In this document: piece by piece, positions 35,021 through 59,590 of the stretch | How positions within the stretch are numbered: position 1 is the first letter of the stretch | Layout of the letters: every line of letters begins with the position of its first letter | NCBI RefSeq assembly: GCF_014905095.1 | Contig: NZ_CP041165.1 | Coordinates: 1,302,001-1,366,000 of the forward strand | DNA length: 64,000 nucleotides | Source of the DNA: Sulfurimonas marina | GTDB lineage: Bacteria; Campylobacterota; Campylobacteria; Campylobacterales; Sulfurimonadaceae | Direction of reading: 5' to 3' | The notes under the pieces: generated by a model | Told to the model about the DNA's origin: nothing | Seen by the model: the letters and a program-made list of their open reading frames with translations, nothing else | Databases searched by the model: none | Translations under genes and position numbers: made by a program

Positions 35021-35097
<77 letters not shown>

Positions 35098-35127
35098 AAC
35101 TAAACTTTCGCATACATATTAATATAT

Positions 35128-35202
35128 TGGGGTATCGCCAAGCGGTAAGGCCTCGGTTTTTGGTACCGATATTCGGGGGTTCGAATCCCTCTACCCCATC
35201 CA
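35128..35202 (+). tRNA. tRNA-Gln (TTG), first copy
   Basis: A 75 nt cloverleaf with encoded CCA: acceptor TGGGGTA/TACCCCA, anticodon loop TTTTGGT (anticodon TTG, glutamine), T arm GGTTCGAATCC. It lies 30 bp after tRNA-fMet and probably shares its promoter. The 72 nt body is identical to the second copy at 35246-35317. Confidence 0.96.
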
Positions 35203-35245
35203 CCCACACAAATAAACTTCAAAACAAACTAATTTTTTTAAATAT

Positions 35246-35317
35246 TGGGGTATCGCCAAGCGGTAAGGCCTCGGTTTTTGGTACCGATATTCGGGGGTTC
35301 GAATCCCTCTACCCCAT
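35246..35317 (+). tRNA. tRNA-Gln (TTG), second copy without encoded CCA
   Basis: A 72 nt body identical to the first copy, but the bases after the discriminator T are AAT instead of CCA. A CCA-adding enzyme would be needed to mature it. Its last 16 bases (35302-35317) recur at 59572-59587, followed there by CCA, so this copy appears to be the attL end of a genomic island whose entry replaced the tRNA 3' end. Confidence 0.93.
35302..35317 (+). repeat. attL core of the tRNA-Gln island
   Basis: AATCCCTCTACCCCAT at the 3' end of the second tRNA-Gln equals 59572-59587. The next ~90 bases on the island side hold several TGTCAG/CTGACA hexamers (about 35367-35408), as expected of integrase arm sites. 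The first tRNA-Gln carries the same core at 35184-35199, so the left border could also lie there. Confidence 0.65.
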
Positions 35318-35473: not shown

Positions 35474-37216
35474 ATGAAATCAAATACCTTAGATTATTAC
35501 AATAAAAATGCTTCAAACCTCTATGAACGCTATAATTCAGCAGATATGACCAAAGTTCATAAAGTACTTGATAAGCATATTAACGGTTCCGATAAAGTAC
35601 TCGATATTGGATTTGGATCAGGACGTGATCTTTTACATCTAAAACGCAGAGGTATCACAGGATGGGGTGTAGACGGTTCTAAATCATTTATAAATCTATT
35701 TACTGCAGACTACCAATCTTTTAAAGAAAGAATATTTCACTCTGTTTTACCATCACTGAATTTATCAGATGAATTCAAAGAATTTTTCAGTGTTATATAT
35801 TCAATTGCAACATGGATGCACTTGCCAAAAGAGGAGCACTTTGAAGCGATACTAAATATAAAAAAGTATTTAAAGCCCGGCGGAAAAGTAATAATCAGTT
35901 ATTCAATTACGACTAGAGAGAACGACCCTCGTTATTTTGAAGATATAAATCAGGAACAACTGTCTCTTTTATTTGAAACTTTCGGCTTTAGTTTAGTAGA
36001 AACCACAACCTCTGCAGACGGTCTTGGTAGAAATAACATAACTTGGATTACACAAGTATTTCAGTATACAGACATTTCTAAAAAAGGTATTGATCAGATA
36101 GAGTCAATACTCTCTCAAGATTCAAAAGACTCAACATATAAATTTGCACTACTCAGGTCTTTTGCTCAGATAGCTTCATCACCGTTAAACAGGTTTGCAT
36201 CATTTAAAGAAGGATATGTTTTTTTCCCTATAGGTATGATAGTTGAAAAATGGATTGAAGCTTATTGGAAACTAATGGAAAACACAACATTTATCCCCCA
36301 GAGAAACGGTGAGGAAAAGTCTGCCAAAAAACTGGCATTCAGAAAAACACTGGAAAATGCGATAGATACTTATAATACAAAGAATAAAAACAATTCATAT
36401 TATTCATTTTACAATGAATTTCAAAATGGAATAGCTAGTAACACTGAAGAATATGATATCGTTAGAAATTTAGTAAATACGATAATTAATACAATTATCA
36501 GCGGACCAGTAAAATACTCGGGAAGCTCATTTGATGACCAGAGTTTTTTTATTGTCGGCAACGGTGCAAAAAGTTTTCCTAAAAAGAATTTGTCAATCAA
36601 TCCAAAATCCCTCATAGACAGCTGTACAACTATTGGTATAAAACAGGATGCTTATTATGAACTCTACAGATACGGTTCATGGATAGAAGACTCTATTACA
36701 CTTAGATGGGCTAGATTTACTGAAAACTTGTCTAAAATCAGCGGTTCAAACATATCTTCTGGAGATATAGTTACACTTCTTTCAAAAGATTATGAAGTGA
36801 AACGGGATACACAGTTAGCTAGAAAAATATATGACAAGTATAAGAAAGAACATGGAGAACTCAGATCTGTATGGAGTTCAGACAAGATATCTTCATATGA
36901 AGTTGACCATGTATTGCCATATTCAATATATTCAAATAATGATTTATGGAATCTTCTTCCTGCTTCAAAACAGGAAAACAATACCAAGAGTGATAAGCTG
37001 GTAAGTAGTGAGCTATTACATAAACAAAAAAATCAGATCATTACTTACTGGGAATATGTTAAAGACAATGCCCCTGACAGATTTGAGCATGAGATATACA
37101 GCTCTTTTAATTTAGATCCAATATCTGAGAGCTGGAAAGACAAATTGATTTTAGCTGTGTCTGAACAATTAGAGATTACTTCTTCAATCAGAGGATTAAA
37201 AAGATGGAGTATTTAA
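35474..37216 (+). CDS. SAM methyltransferase fused to an HNH nuclease domain
   Basis: 580 residues in three parts. Residues 1-190 are a class I methyltransferase: motif I KVLDIGFGSGRDLLHL (D44-G50), GWGVDGSK, and YSIATWMHLPKEEHFEAIL; it lacks the (D/N)PP(Y/F) motif of DNA amino-methyltransferases. Residues 200-470 are of unknown fold (MIVEKWIEAYWKLM, LAFRKTLENAIDTYNT). Residues 476-510 form an HNH nuclease: YEVDHVLPYSIYSNNDLWNL then N-x2-K-S-D-K. No partner gene overlaps it. It is the first gene inside the island. A defence role is inference; no specificity subunit or methylation target can be read. Confidence 0.8.
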   Translation: MKSNTLDYYNKNASNLYERYNSADMTKVHKVLDKHINGSDKVLDIGFGSGRDLLHLKRRGITGWGVDGSKSFINLFTADYQSFKERIFHSVLPSLNLSDEFKEFFSVIYSIATWMHLPKEEHFEAILNIKKYLKPGGKVIISYSITTRENDPRYFEDINQEQLSLLFETFGFSLVETTTSADGLGRNNITWITQVFQYTDISKKGIDQIESILSQDSKDSTYKFALLRSFAQIASSPLNRFASFKEGYVFFPIGMIVEKWIEAYWKLMENTTFIPQRNGEEKSAKKLAFRKTLENAIDTYNTKNKNNSYYSFYNEFQNGIASNTEEYDIVRNLVNTIINTIISGPVKYSGSSFDDQSFFIVGNGAKSFPKKNLSINPKSLIDSCTTIGIKQDAYYELYRYGSWIEDSITLRWARFTENLSKISGSNISSGDIVTLLSKDYEVKRDTQLARKIYDKYKKEHGELRSVWSSDKISSYEVDHVLPYSIYSNNDLWNLLPASKQENNTKSDKLVSSELLHKQKNQIITYWEYVKDNAPDRFEHEIYSSFNLDPISESWKDKLILAVSEQLEITSSIRGLKRWSI

Positions 37217-37326: not shown

Positions 37327-39640
37327 TTATTTATCATTATTTTCAACCTTTTGCATATAAATTTTACATAATACTTGCCGATAATTTTTGTCATTTTTTG
37401 AGTTATACCATTGAACAATATAGTCTATTTCAACTTTCTCTTTTAGCTGATAGCCATTTTGAAGTTTTTCATATATTTTATTAGACAATTTATCTTCTTT
37501 ATCTGAAGTGGATGGCTTTGCCAATCTTGCTATTTTCACATGATCTTTATAAATTTCAAAACCAAATCTATTTTGAACTATTTGACATTTATCTCCCGCT
37601 TGCGGACCAACTCTTTTTATTCCATCGGCTGAATATTTATCTGAAAGTGCGATATCCCCTAGTCCCATAAGAAAGACAACCCTATTTGGTTCTTCATCAA
37701 ATTGAGTATACTGAAAATTATTCGTACAATAATGATGTAAAGAATCGAACATATGATTTTTAGTATGGATATGCAAACTATTTTTTGCCCTTGTCATAGC
37801 GACATACAATAACCTTTTATCGTAATCGTTTTGAATAAAATCTTGTTCTATTCCTATATAAACACTATCAAACTCTTTCCCTTTTGCCTTGTGCATTGTA
37901 GAAACTAGTACATTTGCTTTTGTATACTCAAACTCCTCAAACTCTATCTCTTTTAAATACTCTTCAAACAAAGAGGTAAAATGATCAGGATTCGTCTGCA
38001 TCTCCTCTTCGTACTGGTGCATAAACTTCTCGATCACTTTATCTGCTAGTTTATAGTTCTTAGAGTTTTTATAGGCCTTATCAAAATAGTTTTTTGCATC
38101 TGTAAGCGTACTTGTCTTCCAATACTCTAAAAACTCCTGTAGTTCTATCAAGTTCCCCAGACTAAAACCATCTTTGGAGGTGATGTACTTAACATTTATG
38201 CCACTGTTTAGAAGCTCCGAGAAGATTGTTAAAACATCTTCATTGTTTCTCATCAATACCGCTATAGTTTCTGAATCATCTTTTTGCACACCTCTTACTA
38301 TGTTTTGAATAAAACTTCTGTTCTGATAATGAGTTATATTTATTTCCCCATCATCTCCCGCTTTTGGTAAAAGAGGCTCAAGTTTCAGTTTATTTGGGAT
38401 TAGTTCTCTGTATCTATTGGAGAAATCGACAATATTTTTTTTACTTCTATAGTTGGTCAGTAACGAGTACTGCGTAAACTGAAAGTTTTTCTCCTCATCA
38501 AACTCTTTAAAATCTTTTTGAAACTGATTTATATAGCGTATATCTGCACTATCTGCACCAAAGTTATTTATACACTGATCGTCATCTCCTACCGCAATTA
38601 TCTTTTTATCTTTTGCCATTTGCGAGTATATGGCTTGTATAAACCTATATGTTTTTGCACCGACATCTTGATACTCATCGAGTACTAGCATCTGAATATA
38701 GGGGAGTTCTATATCCCCGTTTTCAAGTAATCTTGTAGCTTCTTCAATTACATTGTATAAAGAGATGTTTTCGTTATCTAGTTTTTTCCCTAGTAGGTTT
38801 ATCGCAAAAGAGTGAAAGGTAAAGATCTTCATCTCATATATTTGATTGCCTATAAGTTTATGGAGTCTGTCTCTAAACTCCGCAACTGCCACCCTTGAGT
38901 GTGCAAGCATTAAAAAGTACTCAGGTTTATTGTTCTCAATAGTTACTAGGGAAGCTATCTTATGCACTAAAGTTTTTGTTTTTCCACTCCCCGGACCTGC
39001 TAACACCATTATAGAATCACTCTTATCATCTTCAAATATCTGTTTTTGCTCATTATTGAGATCGTAGATAATCTCTTTGAGCCGCTCCTGAGTTACTGGC
39101 AGTTTTATATGTTTCTCATCAAACTTGTATCGCTTTTTAAATTTTGCATACTCCATCCCAAAGTAGTCTTTTACAAACTCTGACGTTTTCCCCCATCCAT
39201 CTTTGATCAACCTCTCTATAAAACTGATCTGAATATGGATCGACTCTATCTTTCTTTCATAATAGGGCTTTAAACTCTTGTTGTAATGATCTCTTTTTCT
39301 GTATGGGGTATTCTCTTGAATATTCTCTTTTTTAGTGATCTTATACGCTTGGTAATATATAAGCCTTCCACGTCTGAGTGCAAAACTCGTTTTAAGCAGT
39401 TCGTGAAGATAGACCAAAGAGTGATGAAATCCCTCTAATGAGATCTTTTTCTTATCTCCGTCAAACTTTATTTTGAGTTTATTGGTTGAGATCTCAAGCT
39501 CCGCTTCATCTTTGTTTTCCAACTGCTCCAACAAAGCCTCAATAATAAACTTACAAGTTTCCTCGCGCACCTGTATCATATGCTCTAGCTGTTTAAAATA
39601 TTTTCTGTTGATCTCATAGTAAGGATGGAATTTTGGTTCC
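37327..39640 (-). CDS. UvrD/Rep-type superfamily I helicase, N-terminally truncated
   Basis: An SF1 helicase: Walker A AGPGSGKTKTLVHK, LDEYQDVG (motif II), GDDDQCINNFG (III), LLTNYRSKKNI (IV), VSTMHKAKGKEFD (V) and YVAMTRAKNSL (VI). An ATG at 39577-39579 gives 750 residues, but the frame stays open to a TAA at 39641-39643 and reads sensibly (KFHPYYEINRKYFKQLEH) with no start codon. The N-terminal 170 residues and the C-terminus (GDIALSDKYSADGIKRVGPQ) resemble the second half of large RecQ-UvrD fusion helicases. The first half is absent here, so this is probably a remnant, though the motifs are intact. Confidence 0.75.
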
Positions 39641-40130
39641 TTTTATGGTTGTACAGATATTTCCATAAATTCTTACTTTTGGAGCAAATCTTACTGTTAA
39701 AAATCTTGCTCTAAAAAGACTTGGGTTATTGAACATGCTCCAAAAAGAACTATTTGATGAACAACTTGGAAGTGAATACAAAAATTACTTTATGTATTAA
39801 CAAGTACCATAGAAAAATTATTTAAATAGTTCCAAAAAGATTTAATATATTTTTCATCAATACCTTCATTTTCTAAATCCTCTAAAAGTATTTTATATGA
39901 GGCAAGCCAAATGTATCTTCCATTTGCATTGATTCTAAACCTTGCATGTCTAGCGACCATTTTAGAGACACCTCTTGTTTGTTCAAAGTAATTTGCTCAT
40001 CCGCTGTCAATAATCATAGTTCATTAGATTTGATTAAAGTGAATTATACAAAAGATTATCCAAGACAAAGAACTTTACAAAAATTATAGAAGTTCAAATT
40101 TTAACGAGCTATAAGAATATTCTTTTCATA
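39641..40130. other. 490 bp without an intact gene; decayed coding remnants
   Basis: Between the helicase stop codon and norF. It holds a plus-strand open fragment (39669-39800, 43 residues, GANLTVKNLALKRLGLLN, not recognised), a minus-strand truncated-haemoglobin tail (39790-39996), and an AT-rich 12 bp palindrome (AAGAATATTCTT) at about 40113-40124 just after norF, which could be a weak terminator. The mixture of broken pieces suggests deletions at this junction of the island. Confidence 0.6.
39790..39996 (-). pseudogene. C-terminal remnant of a truncated haemoglobin (group II-like)
   Basis: Open on the minus strand for 68 codons after a TGA: NYFEQTRGVSKMVARHARFR, then INANGRYIWLASYKILLEDL and FWNYLNNFSMVLVNT. 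The R-H-x2-F-x-I then W pattern followed by a last helix of this kind is what is seen in the E-H helices of group II truncated globins. The first half (helices A-D) is missing and no frame upstream supplies it. A globin beside a nitric oxide reductase operon is a sensible association. Identification rests on pattern memory and is not certain. Confidence 0.5.
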
Positions 40131-59571: not shown

Positions 59572-59590
59572 AATCCCTCTACCCCATCCA
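59572..59590 (+). repeat. attR: displaced 3' end of tRNA-Gln
   Basis: The last 19 nt of tRNA-Gln with its CCA (AATCCCTCTACCCCATCCA), equal to the first tRNA-Gln copy through CCA and to the second copy up to the discriminator base. No tRNA 5' part precedes it. It lies 9 bp before the end of the Mut7-C gene. Best read as the old tRNA 3' end pushed away by integration of the island. Confidence 0.8.

Follow-up and report, generated by a model that had tools for sequence, protein, structure and literature searches.

The published idea closest to the locus described here is PD-lambda-5, which the accessible portions of its report describe as a compact "RM+Abi" system of a prophage that includes a methyltransferase (MTase) (PMC9519451); the likeness is one of description. 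Surveys of Dnd and BREX systems, in the portions available, describe modification systems that have recruited HNH, HKD-SF2, and GmrSD effectors, and those portions hold no mention of the MTase treated below (PMC10853773, PMC12839542). The figure legends of the DefensePredictor paper name an MTase among the validated systems and give no detail (PMC13092281), so that one partner form of the present MTase may have been discovered before. No description of this MTase-HNH pair was found in the open literature, to which our search applied.

The locus lies in a 64,000-nucleotide stretch of the Sulfurimonas marina genome (the window). An earlier sequence-only reading had proposed that one 580-residue protein at this place joins an MTase to an HNH nuclease, and both the open reading frame coordinates and the Pfam domains agree with it. 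The gene is a single ATG-start open frame with exactly these coordinates (Table 1), and the opposite strand carries stop codons throughout. Methyltransf_23/11/25 matched residues 27–146 (best 2e-10) and HNH_4 (PF13395) matched residues 472–509 (2.8e-8), both above the Pfam cut-off, while residues 200–470 had no credible match in Pfam.

Table 1. Features of the MTase-HNH locus and its island (positions within the window).
Feature	Position	Strand	Basis or remark
Second tRNA-Gln	35246..35317	+	3' end 35302-35317, putative attL
MTase-HNH fusion gene, 580 aa	35474..37216	+	ORF, Pfam, homologues
MTase domain, residues 1-200	35474..36073	+	Pfam, alignments, predicted structure (pLDDT 94)
Middle region, residues 201-470, N-terminal part of HNH protein, YKFAL motif	36074..36883	+	Common to MTase-less HNH proteins
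HNH_4 nuclease core, residues 472-509, D478/H479/N502	36887..37000	+	Pfam, profile, SpCas9 alignment
UvrD-like ORF, 750 aa	37327..39579	-	Convergent with fusion; C-terminal half of giant RecQ-UvrD protein
16-nt repeat of tRNA-Gln 3' end	59572..59587	+	Putative attR, ~24.3-kb island

The MTase had been described as a small-molecule type with an intact motif I and no DPPY motif, and this description holds. Motif I reads VLDIGFGSGRD and is intact, and the whole 580-aa protein contains zero "PP" dipeptides; the fusion therefore lacks [DNS]PP[YFW], the motif IV of DNA MTases. Structure prediction, which had been suggested as a check, gave a confident model for the MTase (pLDDT 94) and a low-confidence one for the HNH half (pLDDT 43). 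By Pfam and the predicted structure, the domain has the Rossmann fold, motif I, and N-terminal lid helix of class I small-molecule SAM MTases. The top PDB matches to the model were RPA2492, phosphoethanolamine N-methyltransferases, TleD, toxoflavin MTase, METTL6, and similar enzymes, and no DNA MTase was among the 50 best. Judging from its motifs and predicted fold, the MTase is of the small-molecule type and not DNA-specific in appearance. Alignments gave a family signature consisting of Y9, GxGxGRD at 46–52, H116, G137, R153, and D182-xxx-R186-xxxx-W191. The family is sharply bounded: a search of 397 genomes from the phylum gave eight members scoring at least 195 bits, and the next, unrelated MTase scored 73 bits. 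A contig scan returned a sole match, a partial homologue in a Campylobacterales MAG whose MTase fragment is 57% identical.

The HNH nuclease, claimed to be intact, carries all of the residues named for it (D478, H479, N493, N502, N503, and D507). Its D478, H479, and N502 align with D839, H840, and N863, the catalytic residues of the SpCas9 HNH chain. Solved-structure matches by profile covered the HNH part only and were mainly Cas9. On these alignments the domain is a Cas9-type HNH with an intact D-H-N triad in a beta-beta-alpha-metal context, and nuclease activity is predicted.

Residues 200–580 occur as a unit without an MTase in cyanobacteria, Deinococcus, Hymenobacter, and one Campylobacterota genome (G258). 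Because the middle region is thus common to HNH proteins that lack an MTase, residues 200–470 are, by sequence comparison, the N-terminal part of the nuclease, and not a separate sensor joined to both domains. Across the HNH proteins, Y222, K223, and L226 (the YKFAL motif), W412, D478, H479, N493, and N502 (full-protein numbering) are invariant or nearly so. Just upstream of the MTase-less HNH gene of G258 is a short truncated ORF (L004, 1303–1464) with an N-terminal sequence that by eye resembles an HKD helicase. A conserved small HTH partner of the MTase-less HNH proteins was considered and rejected, the small upstream ORFs being mostly unrelated to one another.

A fusion at locus L106 of the same-genus genome G332 is 74% identical to that of the window. 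Between the two, dN is 0.17 and dS 1.30 overall, and dN is well below dS in the MTase, middle, and HNH segments alike, although this estimate of selection is rough because dS is saturated. In a tblastn search of plasmids, full-length fusions were found in eight records in which one place covered at least 80% of the query. They belong to Azospirillum, Pseudoalteromonas THAF3, Sphingobium, and Roseomonas (22–26% identity, E to 4e-47), that is, to Alpha- and Gammaproteobacterial plasmids. Split MTase and HNH operons are found in Campylobacterota, Acinetobacter, and Pseudoalteromonas. On these comparisons, the MTase-HNH fusion is a conserved arrangement and not a chance joining.

The fusion gene follows a tRNA-Met and two tRNA-Gln genes (35021–35317) and had been read as the first cargo gene of a tRNA-adjacent island. 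This is borne out by an exact repeat of the tRNA-Gln 3' end, AATCCCTCTACCCCAT, about 24.3 kb downstream (0.04 matches expected at no more than two mismatches), and by variation within the genus, in which ribB-tRNA-Met-Gln is kept and the downstream genes differ. Between the repeats lie the fusion, the UvrD half, a nor denitrification cluster, efflux and regulatory genes, and an IS256-type transposase (names from sequence reading); no integrase gene was found between them. The repeat at 59572 extends to 20 nt when it is matched to the tRNA-Gln copy at 35184, and CTGACA-type repeats near both island ends look like recombinase arm sites. The two tRNA-Gln genes form a tandem duplicate (35119–35317; 81 nt, 98% identical), which may have arisen as a side effect of integration. 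Next to related loci are type I R-M genes (L106), McrC-annotated genes (L036), HipAB with a relaxase (L108), and Dnd genes (L101). A survey of homologue neighbourhoods, which could have pointed to housekeeping roles, pointed instead mainly to mobile elements (plasmids and prophages) and to defence genes (type I R-M, Dnd, HipAB, and McrBC).

The sequence-only reading left out the adjacent helicase. The 750-aa UvrD-like ORF shows 61% identity over 767 aa to residues 878–1642 of a 1646-aa RecQ-UvrD protein encoded directly downstream of the L106 fusion, and homology to this giant reaches about 13 codons 5' of the ATG of the window ORF. The N-terminal half was not found in the genome of the window, where only an ordinary RecQ-like match was present. 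At L107 a homologue of the L106 giant directly precedes split MTase and HNH genes, and thus the giant adjoins MTase-HNH twice in the same-genus relative; the order and orientation of the UvrD half relative to the fusion in the window differ from those at L106. These 1.6-kaa giants (L106, 728–5668; L107, 2630–7420) have a RecQ-like helicase at ~275–620 and a UvrD helicase at ~1040–1500, and their N-terminal segment resembles by eye a DEDD exonuclease. The giant is present in about 20 other genomes out of 394, and at almost every further locus examined its close neighbours are unrelated. It is therefore separable from MTase-HNH and, by gene context, was recruited to its vicinity in this genus. 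That the giant is an obligatory third component found no support, in view of those mostly unrelated neighbours and its absence near the plasmid fusions. The segment at 39640–40020 is non-coding with ORF fragments, and 96 nt of it (39656–39750) are 74% identical to DNA upstream of the L106 fusion; judging from this identity, the match is a trace of rearrangement.

The same MTase family occurs with several kinds of partner, and the order of the MTase and effector genes varies between loci. An HNH protein is fused to it in the window, at L106, and on plasmids; lies downstream of it at the second G332 locus, in G006, Pseudoalteromonas HL-AS2, and Acinetobacter, and on viral contigs L093 and L095; and lies upstream of it at L087, L096, and L097 and in Roseomonas marmotae. 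An HKD(PLD)-SF2 helicase adjoins the MTase in Pseudoalteromonas CuT4-3, Aeromonas caviae, and L092, and is fused to it in Polaromonas W11N (585 aa); the HKD assignment was made by Pfam for CuT4-3 and, for the other three, by similarity to the CuT4-3 protein read by eye. The MTase is therefore fused to two unrelated nuclease types. An MTES_1575 REase-SF2 helicase is beside it in G125 and G341. In G210 (L101, 2338–9165) the MTase is followed by a GmrSD/DUF262 protein, DndC, a DndD-like ATPase, DndE, and a gene that reads from its sequence as Dam-like; the MTase is here a possible extra component of the Dnd cluster, judging from gene order. The MTases of HL-AS2 (HNH) and CuT4-3 (HKD-SF2) are 80% identical and grouped with 99/97 support, whereas their effectors differ. 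In the sampled Campylobacterota genomes, four of five HNH loci and seven of eight MTase loci were paired, and G040 has a solitary MTase; for L095-subtype HNH proteins on plasmids, the MTase was directly upstream in nine of 13 well-covered cases.

A protein of ~200 aa with two hydrophobic segments (two-TM protein) pairs with the MTase on seven viral contigs and in E. coli lambdoid prophages, where the pair is located between the integrase and the exo-bet-gam genes. Of 5426 complete E. coli genomes, 43 carried at least part of this pair. In an E. coli prophage (L158, 5001–6184) and in phage phi458 (L038, 2336–3519) the two genes form a two-gene unit beside the integrase and oriented against the early genes, a position typical for prophage-encoded accessory genes. 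The two-TM partner was not accepted as a SLATT protein, since Pfam gave no match and the sequence shows no more than its two hydrophobic segments. On this comparison of loci, the MTase is the constant part and the effectors are swappable. The suggestion that a nucleotide or tRNA might be sensed or modified by the protein ahead of the cut is accordingly too HNH-specific, because the MTase is reused with unrelated effectors including the two-TM protein.

What is established here at the level of sequence is the domain content, the integrity of the active site, the mobile context, and the repeated fusion or operonic pairing of a single MTase family to effectors of different kinds. Our preferred reading, which we hold tentatively and at somewhat less than an even chance, is that the fusion is a mobile-element or phage-conflict cassette combining a constant MTase and an exchangeable effector in one chain. 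The MTase would be a control subunit that binds SAM together with a cognate small molecule or nucleotide, or that methylates a partner; it would hold the effector inactive, or release it when infection changes the ligand, and the released HNH would then cut DNA. In one relative, the giant RecQ-UvrD protein beside MTase-HNH may act on the same DNA by unwinding or processing it, and the UvrD protein in the window may be non-essential because only its C-terminal half is kept there. The effector need not depend on the MTase, because MTase-less HNH homologues exist. We consider it possible, but doubtful, that a wider conflict-system family exists in bacteria and phages, in which the small-molecule-type MTase is the common sensor or controller of HNH, HKD/REase-helicase, GmrSD, and two-TM killing modules. 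If the MTase controls the effectors, its ~200-aa domain with the D-xxx-R-xxxx-W signature would be a handle for finding related cassettes, that of E. coli among them, whose present annotation is no more than "class I SAM-dependent methyltransferase."

The cassette could instead be a non-canonical R-M system, in which the MTase marks self DNA or its precursors by an unusual methylation, a partner gives specificity, and DNA is cut by the nuclease when it lacks, or when it carries, the mark. In favour of this, most of the partners are of restriction type (HNH, HKD-SF2 and REase-SF2 helicases, and GmrSD beside Dnd), and in R-M systems the M and R genes typically overlap or are closely fused. PD-lambda-5, likewise a methyltransferase-containing "RM+Abi" system, was cloned, according to the accessible portions of its report, in a host lacking the mrr region (PMC9519451). 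We nevertheless regard non-canonical R-M as unlikely. The MTase has neither motif IV nor a target-recognition domain and its fold matches are small-molecule MTases, the two-TM partner has no DNA to cut, and an HNH protein without the MTase is tolerated; simple DNA marking is also made less likely by the exchange of effectors, a membrane protein among them. If this were an unusual R-M system, the methylation would be made by something other than a canonical DNA MTase.

Overlapping two-gene operons on plasmids and prophages, with effectors that are potentially self-toxic, are also what a toxin-antitoxin or addiction module would look like, the MTase neutralizing a toxic nuclease or membrane protein and mainly stabilizing the plasmid or prophage, with no anti-phage function. 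Toxin and antitoxin in one chain, and the presence of type I R-M, Dnd, and McrBC genes nearby, fit defence better, however, and the effectors also occur without the MTase, so that we give addiction rather a small chance. Smaller still is that of a diffusible methylated signal, made by the MTase and activating the effector by analogy with CBASS or Pycsar. An enzyme that stays the same while its nuclease or membrane effectors are exchanged would suit it, but no signal-binding domain was recognized, HKD-SF2 and GmrSD are not known as signal-gated effectors, and fusion of the MTase to its effector would be needless, which is why control in cis is favoured. A chance joining of a housekeeping-type MTase with a homing-type HNH, conceivable given that class I MTases are common, is extremely improbable because independent fusions and pairs recur in several phyla and the gap of 195 versus 73 bits separates the family from other class I MTases.

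Compared with described systems, the fusion shares pieces with several. Within the PADLOC families searched, the matches were partial only, and NCBIfam gave generic matches only. The MTase domain matched Mad2 of MADS (PDLC04134; E 1e-12 to 1e-16), but over positions ~281–447 of 492, the MTase core alone; membership in MADS was rejected, as there was no full-length Mad2 and no other MADS model on the fusion or a neighbour. PDC-M01B of the candidate system PDC-M01 matched the HNH region (7e-7), and membership was rejected for want of a PDC-M01A match on the MTase or a neighbour. Free-standing HNH partners weakly matched PtuB of Septu, which was likewise rejected because PADLOC found no PtuA ATPase on the fusion or a neighbour, the partner being an MTase. 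Type IV HNH/GmrSD modification-dependent nucleases have similar HNH or DUF262 effectors, and the partners match PADLOC type IV and SspE/Orf5-like models; no SRA or EVE domain was recognized by Pfam, and the type IV nucleases differ in acting without a methyltransferase partner. Type II/IIG R-M systems also have a nuclease and a SAM methyltransferase in one chain or operon. In the fusion, however, the MTase is a bare 200-aa core without motif IV that folds like small-molecule MTases, and no target-recognition domain is linked to it, the middle region (for which fold prediction is of low confidence) going with the HNH. An ordinary type II/IIG assignment was rejected on these grounds, as the sequence-only reading had anticipated. 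To our knowledge, MTase control of interchangeable effectors would be a control logic known from no described defence system, and it may be categorically new; if the MTase does control the effectors, metabolite- or SAM-dependent control would be added to the known switches of bacterial immune effectors.
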